From IMG/VR virus record IMGVR_UViG_3300017963_000115, positions 1 through 43,621 of that record: a stretch of 43,621 bases of DNA; one strand, 5' to 3'. Positions 3,158 through 35,473 of the stretch are shown here, piece by piece. The first letter of the stretch is position 1; each line of letters begins with the position of its first letter. The notes under the pieces were generated by a model. That model worked only from the letters and a program-made list of their open reading frames with translations. It made no database searches and was not told the DNA's origin. A program made the translations under genes and the position numbers. Source of the stretch: a virus.

Positions 3158-6111
3158 TGGCCCGCGCCGCGACATCACCGGAATTATTACTCATGCGCTC
3201 AGACGGCCAGCGGAGCAAACAGTTCCTGGCCGTTTTTCAGCCCGCCACGATCTATACGGCGGAGCTGAACGGCGTTCCGGGCAGCAATGACGAAGTGTAT
3301 ACCATCGGCTTCAACAACGGCTCCGGCACGCTGGGCGATGTGCAACCCGGCATGACCCTGTATGTAGGCACGTCCGCCGGGGATTATGATTTGGGCTTTT
3401 GCCGCATCCGCAAGGACCCGATTGCAGGCACCTTCTACATTGGCGAAACGTCCGAGATCGCCTGGGACACGGGCGGCACCATCTACCTGACCGTGGTGGA
3501 CGATTACGACCTGTGGGAACGGCGCATGAAGTCGGTCTCGGGCGCGCTCAAAGCGGACGCTGATATCGCCTATTCCGACCAGCACGAAGATTGGGAACCC
3601 GTGGCCGTCATGGGCCCGGACGCGGTCGTGTGGCTGGATGACGGGCCGGTGGATGTGGAGTTCGCGGAAGCAGCCGAATCCTGGGTCTTCGATTCGTCCA
3701 TCTCGTCCTATGCCTTCACATCCGATGATGGTGCCTGGACTGACGAAGACACCGCCGATGCCGTCTTGACCATCAGCAGCTACCCGACCAACGGCCATAT
3801 CAACGTCTGGCTGACGGTGACGGCTGCCAACGGCAAAACGCACACCGCGCACCGCACGGTCCATTGCTTCGACGCCGATCACATGCCCGCCACCGCTTTC
3901 GAGCTGAAGAACAAGCCCAACGCCAGTTACGAGGCGGGTGGCTACAGCTTCACGGTCGAGATGTACGACGAAGCGTCGCTCTCAGAGCTGCGCGAGCGCT
4001 CGCTGGTGATCCTGTTTACCAAGGACTGGTACGACGGGGCGGAAGATTACATCGGCCCGATCGATGACCGCGAGAACGTCAAATTTATCGGTCGGGTAGC
4101 AGGCGAGAGCATCGACTGGGACGCGGACAGCGGCACGGTCACCTTCAGTGTGCATGGCCCGCAGTTCTGGCTGGCGCGCGCTGCCGGTTACAACGGCGCG
4201 CTCACGCCCACCGCTGCCCCCGCTACCTGGGGCCAGATCCCCCAGATGACGGTCGATAAGGCGCTTTTCGTCTTGCTGCACTGGTGCTCCACGGCCACAT
4301 CGGTGCTGGACGTGAAGCTGACGGATGATACGCGCTACGCGCCGGAGATCATCTCACCGGCAGCATCCATCTGGGAGCAGATCAAGGAGATCGCCGGGCG
4401 CTTCATCTTCGCCTTCCCGGGTTGCGACCGCTATGGACGCCTGTTCGTCGAGATCGACCCGCAGATGGTTCCCGAAGTGGACCGCGACTGGCCTACCGTG
4501 ATGGAGATCGCAAAGACAGACTGGGCTGAAAATATACAGGCCCGCCGAGCCCCGGTGAGCGAAGTATCGCAGATCAACCTGGCGAACTGGCAGGTGGACG
4601 CCAGCGGCGCGGCGCTCACCAACTACAGCCTGGCTCCCGGCCACGTGCCGCTTCAACACGGCAAGCCCGAAGTGCTGGATGGCGTCCTTGCCGCAGACCA
4701 GTCCGAATCGAACCAGCAGGCCGGTTTACTGCTGGGCTGGCGTAACCGCGGGTACGAATTCACCGTCCCGTTTGGGATGGCCAACTTCCTGGTGGATCTG
4801 TGGCCGCGCCAGTTTTGCAGCATCGACGTGGCCGCCGCTGACACCCCACGCGGCGTGGCCTACGATGGCAACCTGGTGCCGCGCACGATCACCTGGCTGG
4901 ACGAAGAAGCGCTCACGCCCGCCGTGGTCTTCGAAGATGAAACCTTCGAGCAGGAGAGCGTCAATGGCGACATCCCGGTGGGCGACGGCACCTACATCAC
5001 GATGCCGCACCTGCCACAGCTCCCCAAGCTGCCGCCCCTGCCCCCGCTGGACGACTTTGGCCTGTATGGCGAGCTGAGCGAAGAAGAATTGGACGAAGGC
5101 CCCGGCACGCTTGCCCTGGCCAGCTCCAACTTCGGGATCATGTACACCAACTCGAAGAACGAGGACGGCGACCGCCAGTGGAAATTTATGAACGCCGGGC
5201 TGACGGAAGACCAGGCGAATTACGTCAAGCGCATCATCCGCACCCCCAGCGGGGCGCTCTTTGCGCTGATCGCCGATACCGGCACAACCAACGGCGCAGA
5301 CTGGGTCTTCTATGCTCCGTCGCTGGGCGCGCCCTGGGTCGAGCTGATGGACACCAGCGGCCTGGCGGGTAGCAGTCCCAAGCTGGTGGCGCTGGGCTAT
5401 AACCCGAATGTGTCCGAAGAGATTGCCGTGATGAGCGGATCAAGCACGGATAACAGCGGCGAGTTCCACACCGGCGACCGGAGCGGGCTGTCGCAACTGG
5501 CCAACAGCATCGATGCCAGTCAACGCCTTGGCGATATCACCTATGGCATGGGCAAATGGTACGTGACGCATTCCGAGAAAAACCTTTTCTCAGACCAGGC
5601 TTTCACGCGCATCACAGCAGGTGGGAGCGTGGAGAAGAATGCGGTCAACTACACCAACGGGCAGGATTACGCCGCGTCGCTGCACTGGCACAAACGCGGT
5701 GGCGGCATCATTTACGAATGGAACCACGATGGCCGCTATTTGCGCAAAGTGGAAGACAACGATGGCGACGCATCCGACACGACCATGCCCAGCATTGGCG
5801 TGGTGGAAGAAGCACTGCCCAACCTGCTGGCGGTCGATCCCACCGGACAATACCTGATGGGCGGCCACGATGCCGTCATCGGGAAGAAGTCATCCGATTA
5901 TGGCGCCACTTTCGGCAATGTGGATGCTTCCCTGGGGATCGGCTATCAGGTCTGGGAGAACTGCATCAGCGCCGATGCCTGGCTGGCGGCCACCACGCAG
6001 GTGGTCAAGTACACGCCTGATTTTGGCGACAACTGGGACGACATCTCCGGTGACCTGGCTTCTGTGGCCCCGCTGGTGGCTATCAAGCATTTGTTGTTCA
6101 TCGCATGGTGA
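3157..6111 (+). CDS. Large tail tip/hub protein with C-terminal beta-propeller-like region
   Basis: A 984-residue protein with a GTG start, coupled to the preceding gene. The first ~620 residues are beta-rich with motifs such as GRVAGESIDWDADSGTVTFS and resemble tail-associated hub/lysin modules. A Pro/Leu-rich linker follows (LPQLPKLPPLPPLDDF, near residue 630). The last ~330 residues look like BNR/WD-type propeller blades, with repeated hydrophobic strands and SSDYGATF and YTPDFGDNWDD turns. Its position after the tape measure suggests it forms the tail tip and may bind host glycans. The propeller assignment is by eye. Confidence 0.7.
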   Translation: MARAATSPELLLMRSDGQRSKQFLAVFQPATIYTAELNGVPGSNDEVYTIGFNNGSGTLGDVQPGMTLYVGTSAGDYDLGFCRIRKDPIAGTFYIGETSEIAWDTGGTIYLTVVDDYDLWERRMKSVSGALKADADIAYSDQHEDWEPVAVMGPDAVVWLDDGPVDVEFAEAAESWVFDSSISSYAFTSDDGAWTDEDTADAVLTISSYPTNGHINVWLTVTAANGKTHTAHRTVHCFDADHMPATAFELKNKPNASYEAGGYSFTVEMYDEASLSELRERSLVILFTKDWYDGAEDYIGPIDDRENVKFIGRVAGESIDWDADSGTVTFSVHGPQFWLARAAGYNGALTPTAAPATWGQIPQMTVDKALFVLLHWCSTATSVLDVKLTDDTRYAPEIISPAASIWEQIKEIAGRFIFAFPGCDRYGRLFVEIDPQMVPEVDRDWPTVMEIAKTDWAENIQARRAPVSEVSQINLANWQVDASGAALTNYSLAPGHVPLQHGKPEVLDGVLAADQSESNQQAGLLLGWRNRGYEFTVPFGMANFLVDLWPRQFCSIDVAAADTPRGVAYDGNLVPRTITWLDEEALTPAVVFEDETFEQESVNGDIPVGDGTYITMPHLPQLPKLPPLPPLDDFGLYGELSEEELDEGPGTLALASSNFGIMYTNSKNEDGDRQWKFMNAGLTEDQANYVKRIIRTPSGALFALIADTGTTNGADWVFYAPSLGAPWVELMDTSGLAGSSPKLVALGYNPNVSEEIAVMSGSSTDNSGEFHTGDRSGLSQLANSIDASQRLGDITYGMGKWYVTHSEKNLFSDQAFTRITAGGSVEKNAVNYTNGQDYAASLHWHKRGGGIIYEWNHDGRYLRKVEDNDGDASDTTMPSIGVVEEALPNLLAVDPTGQYLMGGHDAVIGKKSSDYGATFGNVDASLGIGYQVWENCISADAWLAATTQVVKYTPDFGDNWDDISGDLASVAPLVAIKHLLFIAW

Positions 6112-8607: not shown

Positions 8608-10158
8608 TCACTTATAGAACAACTCCACCTTCCAATCATCTTTCAACTGTATCACCACGATCTTTTCGAGCAGGATATGCAGCACGCGGTTGACTTCGCA
8701 CTGGTCGTGCTCGGCTAGCCAGACCGGGAGTTCGTGCAGGTGCGGGCCGAGCGTGCCGCTCAAACCGTCCAGGCGGGATTGACGCTCGGCCTGGCGCTGC
8801 GCTTCGATGACATCGCTCTCTTCGATGGCGCGGATGCGTTCGTGCAGCTTGAGCCACTCGGGTTCGTAGTGCTCTTCGGAGTAGCGGCCTTTTTGGTAAG
8901 CGGTTTCGAGACGGTACAGCTCGGCTTTGAGTTGTTCCAGGCTAGGGCCGGGCGGTGGCTCGGCGATCTCGCGCTGGGGGATCTCGCGGTGCTCAAGGTA
9001 TGGACGCAGTGATTCGAGCAGGTCTGTTCCCACTTTTTCGAGCAGATCCACGTGTGCCACCACGGTGTGCTCGGACGTGTTCTCCGAGCAGCGCCAGACC
9101 AGCCGATCAGGAACGGAGCGCGGGCCGTTCTTGAAACGCCACAGCGAGGCGCCGCACTCCCCGCATTTGAGCAGGCCGGTGAACTGGTTGTTCTTGCGGC
9201 CCTGGTAATTTCCGGTGGGGCGCGAGCGGCGTTCGAACTCGGCCAGGATGGCGCGGTGCTCGTCCAATGACCAGAGCGGTTCGTGGGCGCCGGTGTTGGT
9301 GATGGCTTTCTCAGGCTGTGACCTATCGCGTTTGATGATGTTATGGCGGCGGTCTTTTTTCACTTTGGTGACTTCGAAACGCACAATGCCCGCGTAGAAG
9401 GGGTTTTTCAGGATATTACGCACCGTGTCGGGATGCCAGACAGGGCTACGGGGGGGAGGTAGATTGCATTCGTCCAGGTAGTCGATCAGTTGACGTAGTG
9501 ACTGGCCTTTCAGGAAGCGCTTTTTGAGTTCGACCAGGTAGGGGACGCGATCGGGTATTTGTACGGGGACAGGCTTGTCGTTCCGTTTGACGCGCGGTGG
9601 GTATTCGTATCCATAGGGCAACTGCACGGGCAAGCCGTGTTTCCGCACGCGGTCGCGCATCCCCGATCTGTATTTGCGTCGCATGCGGCTGATCTCGGCT
9701 GCCGAGCGGATCTCGCTGATGCCGATGTACATTTCGGCGCTGTCGTTCTCGTAGGGGTCGAACTGACCGGGTGGCACGGGCTCCACCGGCTGGGCCAGCG
9801 AGTAGAGCTGCACGCGGTAGTCGCTCAGGGCCTGGTAGACGGCCCGCAGCAGGCTACGGAAGCGGTCGTGATCGGCCATCACCAGCACGTCATACTTGCC
9901 CTGGGAGGCGCTATCCAGCAGACCACGCAGGGCCGGGATCTCGCGTTCGGCATCGCGCAGGTTGATGTAGCGCGTACGGCTGTGTCCGGGGACGCGGTAA
10001 GGCCCGGCGCTCTCGACCCAGCCTTTGGCCAGCGCGGCGGCGCGGGCGTCTTTTTCCTGGTTTTCGAGGGATGTTTTGTCGTCGCGCGCCTGTTCTTTGG
10101 TGGAGACGGCGGCCAGGATGGCGTATCTCATCGCCCTTCGACTACGCTCAGGATTCAT
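8608..10158 (-). CDS. Large serine recombinase (integrase)
   Basis: A 516-residue serine-family site-specific recombinase, the likely integrase for lysogeny. The catalytic Ser is in AAVSTKEQ (residue 19 from this start). The resolvase domain follows, with DVLVMADHDRFRS. Next come the recombinase domain (LPYGYEYPP... PDTVRNILKNPFYAGI), a zinc ribbon (LKCGECGASLWRF... WRCSEN) and a C-terminal coiled coil (LEQLKAELYRLETAYQKG). The start is ambiguous. ATG 10158 has AGGGGG upstream but adds nine residues (NPERSRRA) encoded by a dispersed repeat. ATG 10131 gives the conventional N-terminus. Confidence 0.93.
   Translation of the reverse strand: MNPERSRRAMRYAILAAVSTKEQARDDKTSLENQEKDARAAALAKGWVESAGPYRVPGHSRTRYINLRDAEREIPALRGLLDSASQGKYDVLVMADHDRFRSLLRAVYQALSDYRVQLYSLAQPVEPVPPGQFDPYENDSAEMYIGISEIRSAAEISRMRRKYRSGMRDRVRKHGLPVQLPYGYEYPPRVKRNDKPVPVQIPDRVPYLVELKKRFLKGQSLRQLIDYLDECNLPPPRSPVWHPDTVRNILKNPFYAGIVRFEVTKVKKDRRHNIIKRDRSQPEKAITNTGAHEPLWSLDEHRAILAEFERRSRPTGNYQGRKNNQFTGLLKCGECGASLWRFKNGPRSVPDRLVWRCSENTSEHTVVAHVDLLEKVGTDLLESLRPYLEHREIPQREIAEPPPGPSLEQLKAELYRLETAYQKGRYSEEHYEPEWLKLHERIRAIEESDVIEAQRQAERQSRLDGLSGTLGPHLHELPVWLAEHDQCEVNRVLHILLEKIVVIQLKDDWKVELFYK
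10130..10156. repeat. Dispersed repeat fused to the recombinase start
   Basis: CGCCCTTCGACTACGCTCAGGATTCAT matches the core of the repeat family seen at eight other places in the window. It overlaps both candidate start codons of the serine recombinase and supplies its first residues. Confidence 0.75.
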
Positions 10159-22859: not shown

Positions 22860-23828
22860 ATGTACTTGTTAGGTGAAGATCTGGGGATGGGAGCCAATAA
22901 ATTGTTTGGCCATGCGGGTGGTTTGCAGGTGCTCAGTCAGGTTTCGACCAATGGCACACAACACCTGGCCGATGGGGTAGGGCTGCGCACCCGCGAGCGC
23001 CCGATGGAGGTCAAGTCTGATTCAGGGGCGTTCTTTGTGGGCGAATGGGCGCATGATTTCGGGCGTCCGGTGGAGAATTTGGATTTCGACCGGCTGACCG
23101 GCGCGCCGGAGATGCGGGCGCTGTTGTATGGCAGCCTGGCGAAGTACCAGCAGGCTTACGGTCCGTTCGATGAGCCGCTGGACCTGATGGTGGGCCTGCC
23201 CTTGCAGATGATGACTGGCGATGATGCAAAAGCCTACACGGATGGCGTCAAGCGCTGGATGCGCGGACAGCACACCTGGGCTGCTGACGGTGTGATCCAC
23301 GAGGTAACGATCAAGCGCGTCAGACTGACACCCCAGCCTGTGGGCGCGTTATTCGACTTTGTACTGGATAACGAGGGTCAGATCATTCTCGAAAACCGCT
23401 TCGCACTGACGAAGGAAATCGGCGTGCTTTCGGTTGGCTTCAACACGCTGGAAGTGATGGTGGTGGATGCGGGTGCCCCGAAAGAGCGCTTCACATCCGG
23501 TAACACGGTGGGCGTGCGCAGGCTGCTGGAGTTGATCAACCGCGAGCGGCTGTATTCCCTGGGTGAGCTGGATTCGCTCTTGCGCCAGGGAAAGGTAGAC
23601 CTGAGCTATGCGCTGCCAGTATGGGAACGCGAAGTGACAGGCGAGATCGAGAAGCAGTGGGGGGCGGCCTTCCGCCGTTTCAAGAAGGTGCTGGTGGTGG
23701 GCGGCGGCGCGTTGCTGCTAAAAGAAGTGTTGCTGACGACTTTCCGCGGGAAGGCATTTATCCCGGAAGACCCGGTGCTGAGTATCGCGCGCGGGTTGTG
23801 GAAATTGAACCAGAAGCGGAGATCTTAG
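22860..23828 (+). CDS. Actin-like ATPase (ParM/Alp type)
   Basis: A 322-residue actin-fold protein. The order of motifs fits ParM-like proteins: phosphate-1 loop region EDLGMGANKLF (residues 6-16), LMVGLPLQMM as the connect-like segment near residue 118, phosphate-2 GVLSVGFNTLEVMVVD near residue 198 and the adenosine motif VLVVGGGALLL near residue 280. Such filaments push plasmid or phage DNA apart at division. The next gene overlaps its stop and has the size and basic nature of ParR. No tubulin (PhuZ) homologue is present. Confident in the fold, less so in the role. Confidence 0.75.
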   Translation: MYLLGEDLGMGANKLFGHAGGLQVLSQVSTNGTQHLADGVGLRTRERPMEVKSDSGAFFVGEWAHDFGRPVENLDFDRLTGAPEMRALLYGSLAKYQQAYGPFDEPLDLMVGLPLQMMTGDDAKAYTDGVKRWMRGQHTWAADGVIHEVTIKRVRLTPQPVGALFDFVLDNEGQIILENRFALTKEIGVLSVGFNTLEVMVVDAGAPKERFTSGNTVGVRRLLELINRERLYSLGELDSLLRQGKVDLSYALPVWEREVTGEIEKQWGAAFRRFKKVLVVGGGALLLKEVLLTTFRGKAFIPEDPVLSIARGLWKLNQKRRS

Positions 23829-30686: not shown

Positions 30687-31442
30687 ATGACCAAAGTGAA
30701 ACCCGTCACCCAGTTGCAGCTTGACGGCTTCGCGGACTTGTTGCAAGACGCCGAGGAAGGCGGCCAGGAAGTCAAGCCACTGACCGCCGCAGAAGTGCGC
30801 GAGCGCGAAATGGCCGCGCGCCAGGCGCTGGATGAAAAGATTGACGAAGACGCGCCAAGCTGGACAGAGCAGTATCACGAGTTGATGCTGTCGAATGTGC
30901 CCTGGCGGGTGGCGGCCTTCATCGCTTGGTCTACCGTGCCAAAGTACCGGCGCTGGCCGCGCACGCAGGATGAGCTTGCGCAGGAGGTGCTGGGGCTGAC
31001 CAGTGACCGGCGCATCACCGAGTGGCGCAGGAAATACCCGTACATCGACCAGATGATCGCATCGCTGCAGACCGCAGCGCTGCTGGACTTCATCCCCGGC
31101 GCGATCGAAGCCAGCGGGAAAGTGGCGTCGATAGTCGATTACAAGGCCACCCAGGAACGACGCCTGCTGTTCGAGGCCACCGGCGTGATCGAGAAACATT
31201 CGAAAGTGTCCATCGAAGACCCACAACTGGTCAGCACCGGGCGCAAGATGCTGGAACGCCTGCGCAAGATGCCGCTGGAAAAGAAACTGGAACTGCTGGG
31301 CGACGAGGCGGAGGCCTTCATCAGCGAGCTGGAGGATGAGTTCGCGGAGGATGATGAAAGTATGTTTGATGACGATCCTTCGACTGCGCCCTTCGACGAT
31401 GCTCAGGGCTCCGCTCAGGACGATGGTGGCGAGGATGAGTAA
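30687..31442 (+). CDS. terS: Terminase small subunit
   Basis: A 251-residue protein directly before TerL. The core PWRVAAFIAWSTVPKYRRWP... TQDELAQEVLGLTSDRRITEWRRKYPYIDQMI contains a helix-turn-helix like the phage small terminases that recognise packaging sites. A helical oligomerisation region follows. The last ~20 residues (PSTAPFDDAQGSAQDDGG) are encoded by a dispersed repeat and match the end of the 21262 protein. The stop overlaps the TerL start. Confidence 0.75.
   Translation: MTKVKPVTQLQLDGFADLLQDAEEGGQEVKPLTAAEVREREMAARQALDEKIDEDAPSWTEQYHELMLSNVPWRVAAFIAWSTVPKYRRWPRTQDELAQEVLGLTSDRRITEWRRKYPYIDQMIASLQTAALLDFIPGAIEASGKVASIVDYKATQERRLLFEATGVIEKHSKVSIEDPQLVSTGRKMLERLRKMPLEKKLELLGDEAEAFISELEDEFAEDDESMFDDDPSTAPFDDAQGSAQDDGGEDE
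31377..31426. repeat. Dispersed repeat copy, in frame at the TerS end
   Basis: CCTTCGACTGCGCCCTTCGA then CGATGCTCAGGGCTCCGCTC then AGGACGATGG. It differs from 21517-21563 by very few bases. It sits just before the TerL start codon. Confidence 0.85.
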
Positions 31443-33063
31443 GACTTCGTTGAAGCAGGCTGTGAAGGAAGACATCCGCGCGCAGGTGCGTGCGGAGCGC
31501 TATTTTGGTGATTTCTGCAAATTCGTAGATCCCAAGCACCCGACCGAAGCGCCGCACATGCAGGTGCTGACGCGCAAGCTGCAGGGCGTGGCGCAATATA
31601 TCCTGACGGGCGGGAAGCGGGGCATCCCACGGCTGATGATCTTCATGCCGCCCAGGTACTGGAAAAGCCAGACAGCTTCACGCAAATTCCCGGCCTGGCT
31701 GTTCGGGAAGAATCCGGACCTGCGCGTGATCCTGACATCTTACGGCGCGGACCTGGCTTCGAAGCACTCGAAGGCCGCGCGCGACATGGTGCAGTCGGAG
31801 CGATATTCAGCGGTTTTTGGGACGCTATCTTCCACTGATGAGCCAGTGATGTTGGACCCGGAGAGCAAGGCATCGGCAGCTTGGGATATCGCCGATCACA
31901 ACGGCGGGATGCAAGCCACCGGCGTGGGCGGCGGCGTGACAGGCTTCGGGGCGAACCTGTTCGTGATCGATGACCCGGTCAAGGGGCGCAAAGAAGCGAA
32001 CAGCAAGACGCAGCGCGAGTCGGATTATGAATGGTACAAAGGCACGGCATATACTCGTTTGGAAGATAATGCGGCCATCATCGTGATCATGACGCGTTGG
32101 GACCAGGAAGACCTGGCCGGGATGCTGTTGCACGCGATGGTTTCCGACCCGGACGCGGACCAGTGGGAAGTGGTAATGATGCCCGCCTTCGCGCTGGGCG
32201 AAGACCTGTATCCACAATATCAGGAAGAATACATCGAGAACTTATTACGGGGTATTTATATCCCCGAGAAGGGTGACCAGCTCGGTCGTAAGCCGGGCGA
32301 GCCGCTGTGGCCCGCGAAAGATGATAAACGCGACCTGGAGAAGAAGCGCGCCAACATGGATGACTTCGAGTTCACGGCGCAATTCCAGCAGATGCCGCGT
32401 CTGGCGGAGGGGAACTTTTTCGATGATAAGGACTTCGGGATCGTGGACTGCGCTCCCGAGGGCCTGCGCTGGTTCCGGTACGCAGACCTGGCGCTGGGGA
32501 AGAGCGAAGCCAGCGACTTCAACGCCTGTTACGCCATCGCCTTCGGCCCGGACGGGACGCTGTACATTCGCGACCCGTTGAAGGTGCGGAACCTGGACGA
32601 GTTCCTGCCAGACCTGCGGACGCTGATGCTCTCGGACGGGGAAGCGGGGACAGTCTGGGGGATCGAGAGCAACGCCTTCCAGGTGTTGGTGGTGAAGAAA
32701 TTTCTGGAAGATAAGGCGTTGGTGAACATCCCGATCATGGAAGTGACCGCCAAAGGCAGCAAGGCAGACCGGGCACGCGCCTGGCGCTTACGTGCCAAGC
32801 AGGGCAAGGTGAAACTTGTCCGCGGACCGTGGAACCAAGATTTCATCCGCGTGGCGGCGGCCTTCAACTCGGAGGGCACCGCACGCCACGATGACGACAT
32901 CGACAGCGTGAGCGGCGGCGTGCAGATGCAGGCCGATGAAGCCGGGGGAGATGGAAAGACGGCTAGTTCGGAGGCCGTTGTAGTGAGCACTGATTCATTG
33001 TTTGAAGTGGCTGGTTTCGATACGGGCCATGCCCTACTCAACCAGCGAAGTAACTGGAGGTAG
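31435..33063 (+). CDS. terL: Terminase large subunit
   Basis: A 542-residue packaging motor from ATG 31435, overlapping the TerS stop. The N-terminal ATPase has MPPRYWKSQTASRKFPAWL at the Walker A position (usually PPRhGKS, so the loop Gly is replaced by Trp). It has Walker B NLFVIDDPVKG and coupling motif VIMTRWDQEDLAG. The C-terminal nuclease has RYADLALGKSEASDFNA, GTVWGIESNAF and RHDDDIDSVSGG with the expected acidic residues. Confidence 0.93.
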   Translation: MSKTSLKQAVKEDIRAQVRAERYFGDFCKFVDPKHPTEAPHMQVLTRKLQGVAQYILTGGKRGIPRLMIFMPPRYWKSQTASRKFPAWLFGKNPDLRVILTSYGADLASKHSKAARDMVQSERYSAVFGTLSSTDEPVMLDPESKASAAWDIADHNGGMQATGVGGGVTGFGANLFVIDDPVKGRKEANSKTQRESDYEWYKGTAYTRLEDNAAIIVIMTRWDQEDLAGMLLHAMVSDPDADQWEVVMMPAFALGEDLYPQYQEEYIENLLRGIYIPEKGDQLGRKPGEPLWPAKDDKRDLEKKRANMDDFEFTAQFQQMPRLAEGNFFDDKDFGIVDCAPEGLRWFRYADLALGKSEASDFNACYAIAFGPDGTLYIRDPLKVRNLDEFLPDLRTLMLSDGEAGTVWGIESNAFQVLVVKKFLEDKALVNIPIMEVTAKGSKADRARAWRLRAKQGKVKLVRGPWNQDFIRVAAAFNSEGTARHDDDIDSVSGGVQMQADEAGGDGKTASSEAVVVSTDSLFEVAGFDTGHALLNQRSNWR

Positions 33064-33065
33064 TT

Positions 33066-35411
33066 ATGACACCCAAAGGGAAGAAACGTTTCGAAGAACG
33101 GATCGATTGCGAAGTTGTGCTCCTGGAAGCCCAGGAAGACAAGCCGCGACGGGTCCGATTTGAAAAAGCTATGACGGCGGACATTGTCAACGGCAATAAC
33201 CGCCGATATCCGGCCCAGGTGCTGCAAGTAGCGGTCAAGGAATTGCGAGACCATCTGCATGAGAGCGCCGGGCAGGGCCGTGCCATTCAGTTACTCGGCG
33301 AGGCAGAACATCCGTCTGATAAATCGACCAGGCGTCCAAACCTGCTGGAAACCGTTGTGAAATGGGAAGAAGTCAATTTCGACGGTGTGAATGTGAATAT
33401 CACAGGTTGCATCCTGGAAACCAGCAAAGGCAAGGACATCCTGACGTTGATGGAGGGCGGCGTGATGCCCGGAGTATCCATGCGTGGGTACGGCGATGGC
33501 AAATTTATCAAGGCGTCCAAAGATGGTGATGACAAGGGAAAAGAGAAGATCTTCGAGGTGAGCGAATTGCACATCACGGGGTTTGACATGCTCCTGGAAC
33601 CATCGTTTGAGAACGTCGCACAACTAATCGAATCAATCACGGGCGATAAGCCCGAGGAGGATGAAATGGACAAGGAAGAAGTCCTACAACTTTTGAAAGA
33701 CCACCCCGAAGTTTTCGAGGGTATTACCGAAGCCCAGGTCAAGAAAATGGGCGAAGCCCAATTGAAGGCGCTGGAAGAGAGTGTCCGCAAGGCGCTGGGC
33801 ATCGATGAGAACGCCAACATCAATGAGAGCCTGAAGGCGATGGCTGAGAAGGCCCAGAAGTTCGAAGAAGCCGAGAAGAAGGCTGGTATCGAGAATGCCA
33901 TCGAGGAGGCCACCAAAGAGCTGCCCTACGGCGAGGAAGGCAACAAACTGTTCGTCGAGGAGCTGCAAGAATCGGCACCACATGACGAGAAAGCCGTTGC
34001 CAAGATGGCCGAATCACTGCGCAAACGCTATGACAAGCTGTTCGCCGGTCGCAAGCTGGAAGAGAAAGGTTTTACCGGTGAGATCAAGGGCGTGCAGCCG
34101 TTGTTCGAGAAAGAAACCGGCGTGCCAGAGTTCGCCAAGGCGGCCTACATTCTCAACGAAGCGGTGGTCAAGTCTGAGATGCGCCAGATGCGCGACTTCA
34201 GCAAGGCCGAAACGCGAGCGGAACTGCTCACGATCCAGATCCTGGAACGCTTCGACGCGCTCAACAAGCATCATCTGGCCCGCGAAGCCAAGGAGTTCGA
34301 AGAGGCCGAGCAGACTAGCGACCTGAACCTGCCCTACAGCGTCAGCCGCGCGATCATTGCGGAGGCCTACCCCACCCTGGTGGCGGCAGGCATCTTTGAT
34401 GTGGGCACGATCGAGACCAGCCCCACCCGGCTGTACTTCGAGGCGCATGCTGCCGAGACCGGCTACACGGCCACTGTCACTGACGAGGCTGTGACGGCTG
34501 GTGCTGCGGATGCTTGGGTGGACCTGGACTACGGGCGCGTTACACCCGGAACGGTTGTGGTCACCACCAGCCCGGCTGGGACGACCTATACCGAGAACAC
34601 CGACTTCGTGATTGACTACGCCGATGGGCGCATCAAGATTTTGGCCGCTGGCAGCATCTCGGAAGACGATGCCCTGCTGGTTGATTATGGCTATACCGCC
34701 ATCCGCAAGGGCGAGATGGTACCCATCGAACGCGCGAAGATCTCATTGAGTTACATCACGGTGGAAGCAGCCGCTGACCGCTTGGCTGACCAGATCAGCC
34801 GCGAGGCGATTGTCTTCTCGCGCTCACAGCTCGGCTATGACGCGGTCTCACGCACGATGGCCAGCTTGATTCGCCAGACGCAGCGCAAGATCGACCAGGG
34901 TTTGCTCTACATGGCCCTGGCGGCAGTCAAGAGTGTGGCCAGCAACAGCGGCGGCACCTGGACGACCGGCAACGACGAATCTGACTATGACGATTTGGTG
35001 CGCTTGCTGGGAGAAACTAAGGTGATTGTAGCCAACCGTTACTATACCCCGAATTTCTTCCTGATGAGTTACACCAACTCAGAAGACCTTTCGAACTGGC
35101 GTGGGTTCCGGCGCGACGGCTTCCCGAACGCAATTCTGAACGCGGCTGGCTATGCTGGCAACGTGAAAGGGCTGCCGGTCTTTGCCAGCACCGAGTTCCC
35201 GGATGACACCATCATCGTGGGCAACCGGCAACTGGTGATGCACCGCGTGTTCCAGCCGATGGTTGTGCGCGGACCGTTCCCGACCTATGACGTGAGCGGC
35301 GGCACATCCAAGCTGGTGGCAGCCGATCAATATTATACCGAAGAGTTCAACGTAACCGAGAGCCCCGTGGAAGAAAAGGGCGCGTATCTCGGCGTGACGG
35401 CTGGATCGTAA
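33066..35411 (+). CDS. Fused prohead protease, scaffold and major capsid protein
   Basis: A 781-residue polyprotein. Residues 1-195 are a prohead protease of the gp21/S80 type, with NGNNRRYP, catalytic His82 in LGEAEHPSD and Ser138 in PGVSMRG. Residues ~200-400 are acidic coiled coil typical of scaffold. Residues ~410-780 have HK97-fold capsid features, with an inserted Ig-like domain near residues 480-550 (TPGTVVVTTSPAGTTYTENT). An internal ATG at codon 201 (33666) has a perfect GAGGAGG site, so a 581-residue scaffold-capsid protein is probably also made, as with the nested lambda scaffold. Confidence 0.85.
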   Translation: MTPKGKKRFEERIDCEVVLLEAQEDKPRRVRFEKAMTADIVNGNNRRYPAQVLQVAVKELRDHLHESAGQGRAIQLLGEAEHPSDKSTRRPNLLETVVKWEEVNFDGVNVNITGCILETSKGKDILTLMEGGVMPGVSMRGYGDGKFIKASKDGDDKGKEKIFEVSELHITGFDMLLEPSFENVAQLIESITGDKPEEDEMDKEEVLQLLKDHPEVFEGITEAQVKKMGEAQLKALEESVRKALGIDENANINESLKAMAEKAQKFEEAEKKAGIENAIEEATKELPYGEEGNKLFVEELQESAPHDEKAVAKMAESLRKRYDKLFAGRKLEEKGFTGEIKGVQPLFEKETGVPEFAKAAYILNEAVVKSEMRQMRDFSKAETRAELLTIQILERFDALNKHHLAREAKEFEEAEQTSDLNLPYSVSRAIIAEAYPTLVAAGIFDVGTIETSPTRLYFEAHAAETGYTATVTDEAVTAGAADAWVDLDYGRVTPGTVVVTTSPAGTTYTENTDFVIDYADGRIKILAAGSISEDDALLVDYGYTAIRKGEMVPIERAKISLSYITVEAAADRLADQISREAIVFSRSQLGYDAVSRTMASLIRQTQRKIDQGLLYMALAAVKSVASNSGGTWTTGNDESDYDDLVRLLGETKVIVANRYYTPNFFLMSYTNSEDLSNWRGFRRDGFPNAILNAAGYAGNVKGLPVFASTEFPDDTIIVGNRQLVMHRVFQPMVVRGPFPTYDVSGGTSKLVAADQYYTEEFNVTESPVEEKGAYLGVTAGS
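33654..33668 (+). promoter_or_regulatory. Internal ribosome site for nested scaffold-capsid start
   Basis: GAGGAGG (33654-33660), five bases, then in-frame ATG (33666-33668). It lies exactly at the protease-scaffold boundary. Confidence 0.7.
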
Positions 35412-35414
35412 CCC

Positions 35415-35473
35415 CGGCCCCCCTGTCATCTGCGATGACATCCCCCCAAATATCTCAAAGGTATTTGGGGGGA
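35415..35473. repeat. C6AAATA/TATTTG6 dispersed hairpin repeat
   Basis: CCCCCCAAATA (35442-35452) pairs with TATTTGGGGGG (35462-35472), and TGTCATC/GATGACA forms another stem (35424-35440). It fills the gap between capsid and adaptor genes, and the GGGGGGAGATAGG end may serve as the ribosome site for 35488. Confidence 0.8.

Follow-up and report, generated by a model that had tools for sequence, protein, structure and literature searches.

The window, i.e. the whole 43,621-nt stretch of DNA analysed here (the 43.6-kb virus record IMGVR_UViG_3300017963_000115), carries on its plus strand a gene in which protease, scaffold and capsid are fused in one open frame (33066-35411; 781 residues, 86.4 kDa). 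The large terminase gene (31336-33063) ends 2 bases ahead of this frame, and its end is overlapped by the Shine-Dalgarno sequence (SD) of the full-length start, GGAGGT (33056-33061, +; anti-SD pairing -9.9 kcal/mol). Genes for an SU10-type adaptor, a neck protein, a portal-like protein and a head morphogenesis protein follow 3' of the fusion. Although the head proteins are of the T4 type, a gene for a tail length tape measure protein (PHROG 1272; 1011-2774, +) points to a phage with a long tail. The sequences of two further genes, one of the integrase family (PHROG 95; 8608-10158, -) and one for ParA-like partition (PHROG 691; 22860-23828, +), suggest that the phage is temperate and perhaps adopts a plasmid-like state.

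Directly after the capsid stop, the segment 35412-35487 contains two hairpins, at 35424-35440 and at 35441-35473, the latter with a 15-bp stem, and folds with -35.4 kcal/mol (z -4.9). A perfect stem of at least 9 bp within 110 nt past the capsid stop is present in 38/61 relatives versus 0/61 in a control stretch, and these stems are of unrelated sequence. Possibly, they protect or process the capsid mRNA.

Relatives were collected as about 100 related contigs from two IMG/VR profile searches and one of GTDB genomes, in which the named hosts include Anaerolineales and Thermoflexales MAGs. The non-redundant set comprises 66 proteins less than 90% identical to each other, and a second profile scan supplied about 23 new readable junctions. 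In all relatives where both parts can be read the fusion is a single frame, except for two apparent frameshifts (L071 and L105) that, like an unrelated upstream stretch in L131, are probably assembly faults; a few contigs end before reaching the protease. A read error or frameshift as the source of the fusion is rejected, since L001, a contig of a different assembly, encodes the identical 781-residue protein and nearly all relatives keep the frame open. Most relatives (L004, L008, L012, L015 and others) possess an extra N-terminal domain of about 90-100 residues (ELVKGSLDY...) before the protease, and some a further insert, both the window protein and L002 being without the extra domain.

The N-terminal part of the protein (residues 4-180; 33075-33605, +) is an S77 prohead protease domain. 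Residues 36-180 match Pfam Peptidase_S77 (PF03420) with an E-value of 5.6e-14 (52.5 bits versus a cut-off of 27), the same family is matched by 62/62 relatives, and a PDB search using a profile of the relatives retrieves T4 gp21 at 1.1e-11. The predicted model of residues 4-180 superimposes on gp21 (5jbl_A) with a Z-score of 17.1 and an rmsd of 2.7 over 150 residues. Alignment to T4 gp21 identifies His82 (33309-33311), Ser138 (33477-33479) and Asp174 (33585-33587), all on the plus strand, as putative catalytic residues; His82 and Ser138 are invariant in 62 relatives, and so is Asp174, which completes the His/Ser/Asp set common to gp21. On the grounds of sequence and predicted fold, the protease is a member of peptidase family S77 (T4 gp21 type), for which proteolysis of head proteins is predicted.

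The remaining domains were delineated in an AlphaFold model built from 62 relatives (mean pLDDT 78), in which a protease domain rich in beta structure is followed by a helical stretch and by a capsid domain bearing a beta insert. The scaffold (residues 201-413; 33666-34304, +) is all-helical at 203-413, with pLDDT of about 55-90. It shares its place in the gene order with T4 gp22, to which hhalign yields an E-value of 0.071 over 12 columns only; one tblastn alignment extended from gp21 into gp22, and profile comparison then gave nothing. Residues 414-781 (34305-35408, +) form a major capsid domain of 39.8 kDa in its mature form, assigned through structural matches to T4 capsid proteins. In comparisons of the predicted model over 424-781 using VIA-align, the Z-scores are 18.8 and 18.2 to T4 chains (7vrt_he, of the unexpanded head, and 5vf3_a), 17.6 to T4 gp24 (1yue) and, slightly lower, 16.6 to HK97. 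Pfam Gp23 (PF07068) is not matched by the window protein and is matched by 7/62 relatives (best 6.4e-8). As the capsid profile reaches gp23 alone only with an E-value of 0.11, the assignment is carried by the fold comparison: as modelled, the capsid is of the HK97 fold, with T4 gp24/gp23 closest. A beta-sandwich (Ig-like) insert occupies residues about 466-545 (34461-34700, +), seen as strands in the model and through PHROG 807 ('major tail protein with Ig-like domain'), which covers residues 468-551 with an E-value of 6.9e-12.

An earlier note on this DNA had read here one 781-residue frame at 33066-35411 with a His82/Ser138 prohead protease, a scaffold and an HK97-type capsid with an Ig-like insert, and had suggested structure prediction as a check. 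The frame is indeed open throughout, the protease is borne out by PF03420, the gp21 fold and the invariant residues, and the predicted structure recovers the helical scaffold and the HK97-fold capsid with its beta insert, the latter in agreement with PHROG 807.

At the junction of protease and scaffold the gene contains a second initiation signal. A GAGGAGG sequence (33654-33660, +; pairing -11.3 kcal/mol, as compared to -9.9 kcal/mol for the SD of the first start) is placed, with a spacing of 5, ahead of an in-frame ATG at codon 201 (33666-33668, +), exactly as the earlier note had it, from which a nested scaffold-capsid product of 581 residues and 64.0 kDa would originate. A junction SD with an in-frame ATG is found in 66/66 non-redundant relatives, with pairing energies of -6.4 to -11.9 kcal/mol (mean -9.0), whereas 1174 other in-frame ATGs of the same genes have a mean of -2.8 and 9% of them reach -6. 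The about 23 new contigs, representing new contexts, again have an SD and an in-frame start in all cases, one with GTG; in L133, the methionine is lost and AAGGAGG-N8-GTG is present instead. A scan of all columns and frames identifies the junction as the only in-frame SD-start conserved besides residue 1 (65/66 versus 23/66), and no second conserved start was detected by it between scaffold and capsid. The mean SD strength is equal for the internal and the best N-terminal sites (-9.0 and -8.9), values from which a product ratio cannot be computed as SD strength is a poor predictor of rates. We note that a small hairpin, CGGGC-GATAA-GCCCG, ends just ahead of the internal SD in the window (33642-33660), and that it could tune the internal start.

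One alternative explanation of such a string is that it is a by-product of an acidic linker, built from the Glu and Asp codons GAG and GAT, and that only the full-length chain is made, every copy with its protease. Indeed, the string encodes EED in the window, and acidic residues precede the methionine in many relatives. However, the SD persists through changes of both register and residues. Among the 66 proteins it lies in one codon register in 43, in another in 22 and in the third in 1, corresponding to at least 14 register changes on a tree calculated from the capsid part only. The tripeptides before the methionine are of 27 different kinds among 64 and changed at least 43 times along the tree; the contexts include MED, QGD, KEP, QEV and RRKHI. 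Elsewhere the SD is constructed from Gly-GGA, Lys-AAG and Arg-AGG codons; the glycine codons that build it are always GGA, which accounts for 12% of glycine usage in these genes. Because the encoded residues and the register vary and the SD stays, it is the signal for initiation, and not the peptide, that is under selection. The replacement of ATG by GTG in L133 with AAGGAGG retained argues in the same direction, as does the absence of a conserved SD-start from the gene's other acidic stretches. A per-sequence synonymous-codon test is modest (median p 0.21, combined 7e-6), since acidic residues already favour GAG and GGA, and sequence kinship inflates such simple P values and counts, so that the register changes on the tree represent the safer evidence. 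Taken together, we regard an origin of the string in linker composition as improbable.

SD-like sequences within genes have been proposed to slow ribosomes, and the internal SD may accordingly be viewed as a programmed pause that gives the protease time to fold ahead of scaffold synthesis, without serving as a start. Its location exactly after the domain boundary agrees with such a role. A start codon, however, would be dispensable for pausing, and in every case an ATG or GTG stands in frame at initiation spacing; we consider a mere pause more doubtful still. Least probable of all is that the internal start is an unused vestige of a once-separate scaffold-capsid gene. Loss of one stop would make fusion easy, as T4 has genes 21, 22 and 23 next to each other and, like two Aeromonas phages, has 21 and 22 in one frame. 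A vestige is expected to decay, however, whereas the SD is re-formed in other registers in relatives with as little as about 47% protein identity, and a capsid-only profile gave no unfused relative among the best 80 loci of each scan. Taken as an origin story, such a history is compatible with internal initiation.

The nested start claimed by the earlier note is therefore supported, as no relative whose junction can be read has lost it, while codons and register change. It is very likely, judged from these sequence patterns, that a scaffold-capsid product of about 64 kDa is made alongside the 86-kDa full-length chain, and the nested product would then set the protease-to-capsid ratio. A point against a nested start is that the internal site could be blocked by ribosomes that are already translating the full-length chain.

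The full-length frame is maintained as well. From the predicted protease cut to the internal methionine the linker varies between 6 and 28 codons, without a stop and in frame throughout. With so many relatives, at least some would be expected to have acquired a stop or a frame change if separate products sufficed. Candidate cleavage sites of the hydrophobic-x-E type are located at the ends of protease and scaffold. The putative self-cleavage site of the protease, L187-I-E189|S190 (33624-33635, +), is predicted from motif conservation, with hydrophobic-x-E in 65/66 relatives followed by Ser or Asn in 64/66. At the predicted scaffold-capsid site, F411-E-E413|A414 (34296-34307, +), hydrophobic-x-E is likewise present in 65/66, and the next residue is Ala in 61/66 and small in 62/66. 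The latter site parallels T4 gp23, which reads LTE65|A66 at the place matching FEE|A of the window and from which 65 N-terminal residues are removed (PMC9958956). The scaffold holds several more candidate hydrophobic-x-E sites, at 298, 316, 348, 365 and 407.

Combining the observed domains, the conserved internal initiation signal, the open linker frame and the conserved candidate cut sites, we propose, with fairly high confidence, that the gene represents a T4-like 21-22-23 head module fused into one frame and provided with two in-frame starts, in which a minority of full-length chains co-assembles with nested chains and the protease cuts itself free. Initiation at the upstream start would yield the 86-kDa protease-scaffold-capsid chain, and initiation at codon 201 the 64-kDa scaffold-capsid chain, a building block similar to HK97 gp5. 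A few full-length chains would co-assemble with many nested ones, so that the protease enters the prohead in covalent linkage and in a defined dose. Upon prohead closure, the protease would cut after hydrophobic-x-E, presumably at LIE189|S and FEE413|A; it would thereby free itself and degrade the scaffold, and a mature shell subunit of 40 kDa would remain.

Among known head systems, several come close to this arrangement. In lambda, C (4418-5737) and nu3 (5132-5737) have a common end and the in-frame scaffold start is nested in the protease gene, as in the window; however, protease C is annotated as S49 rather than S77, and the capsid gene E is separate, whereas the nested product of the window includes the capsid. 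The signals at codon 201 are those of a C/Nu3-type arrangement, namely an in-frame internal start that would give a protease-less product with a shared C-terminus. T4 gp21-gp22-gp23 (and gp24) agree with the window in the S77 family, the capsid fold and the domain order, but are encoded by three separate neighbouring genes in the order 21-22-23 instead of a single fused one. T4 gene 21 (L095, NC_000866) also has an annotated internal translation start, near its 5' end and at a position unlike that of the window. In HK97 gp5, the scaffold (delta domain) is fused to the capsid and is removed by a co-assembled protease, as proposed here, although the HK97 protease, gp4, is a separate gene product and the protease of the window is part of the capsid chain. 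In herpesvirus UL26/UL26.5, a protease is similarly fused to the scaffold, and a nested in-frame scaffold product is made in excess; unlike in the window, UL26.5 derives from a separate transcript and the capsid protein is unfused. The whole resembles a nested and fused head gene working like lambda C/Nu3, except that here the nested product would also include the capsid; its parts are an S77 protease and a T4-type HK97-fold capsid. A direct homologue is gene 30 of Virus Rctr41k (KX853513; 64% identity), annotated 'putative phage capsid protein and protease', which has an additional N-terminal domain of about 90 residues and whose internal start is unannotated.

The earlier view that the triple fusion is rare is wrong. 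At least 143 IMG/VR stretches encode the capsid family of the window, the Rctr41k annotation likewise speaks against rarity, and protease-capsid fusions occur in hundreds of phages. An unrelated fusion of the S78 type is matched over most of its length in 234/50,697 phage records; such fusions have been described in Arthrobacter clusters AM, AU and AN (PMC5513430) and called common in small siphoviruses (PMC9671004). The actinophage 'major capsid and protease fusion' (clusters AM/AU, AN, EE and relatives) is a single frame, as in the window, but its protease belongs to Pfam S78, placing the S77 fusion of the window outside this class, and no sequence similarity was detected between the actinophage fusion capsids and that of the window. 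In an AU-type set of ten phages (Arthrobacter, Gordonia, Streptomyces, Curtobacterium, Microbacterium and one faecal phage), an internal AGGAAGG-like SD with a start (nine ATG, one GTG) is located just ahead of the capsid part in 10/10. Similarly, an internal SD-start is conserved at the protease end in 6/6 EE-type fusions and is present in 2/4 of the AN type. As these sets are small and the SDs weaker (many -5.7 to -7.3), the S78 internal starts may serve as a lead rather than as proof of generality. On balance, we lean towards the view that a nested start near the boundary is a general, convergent requirement of protease-capsid fusions and a device for protease dosage. In our literature search, which covered few subscription journals, protease-capsid fusions are reported and a nested start is not; for a Gordonia phage fusion, an ATG ahead of the protease is mentioned, at another position than the nested start (PMC9671378).

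In conclusion, a protease fused to every shell subunit poses a stoichiometry problem, as it would amount to some hundreds per head, versus about 55 protease copies, next to 580 of scaffold, in the T4 head (PMC9958956). The conserved internal start offers an answer, which is testable in culturable actinophages, whose records list the full-length fusion only. If correct, the main form of the capsid protein would be missing from hundreds of phage annotations, and nested initiation would be a predictable feature of such polyproteins, in parallel to lambda C/Nu3 and herpesvirus UL26/UL26.5.
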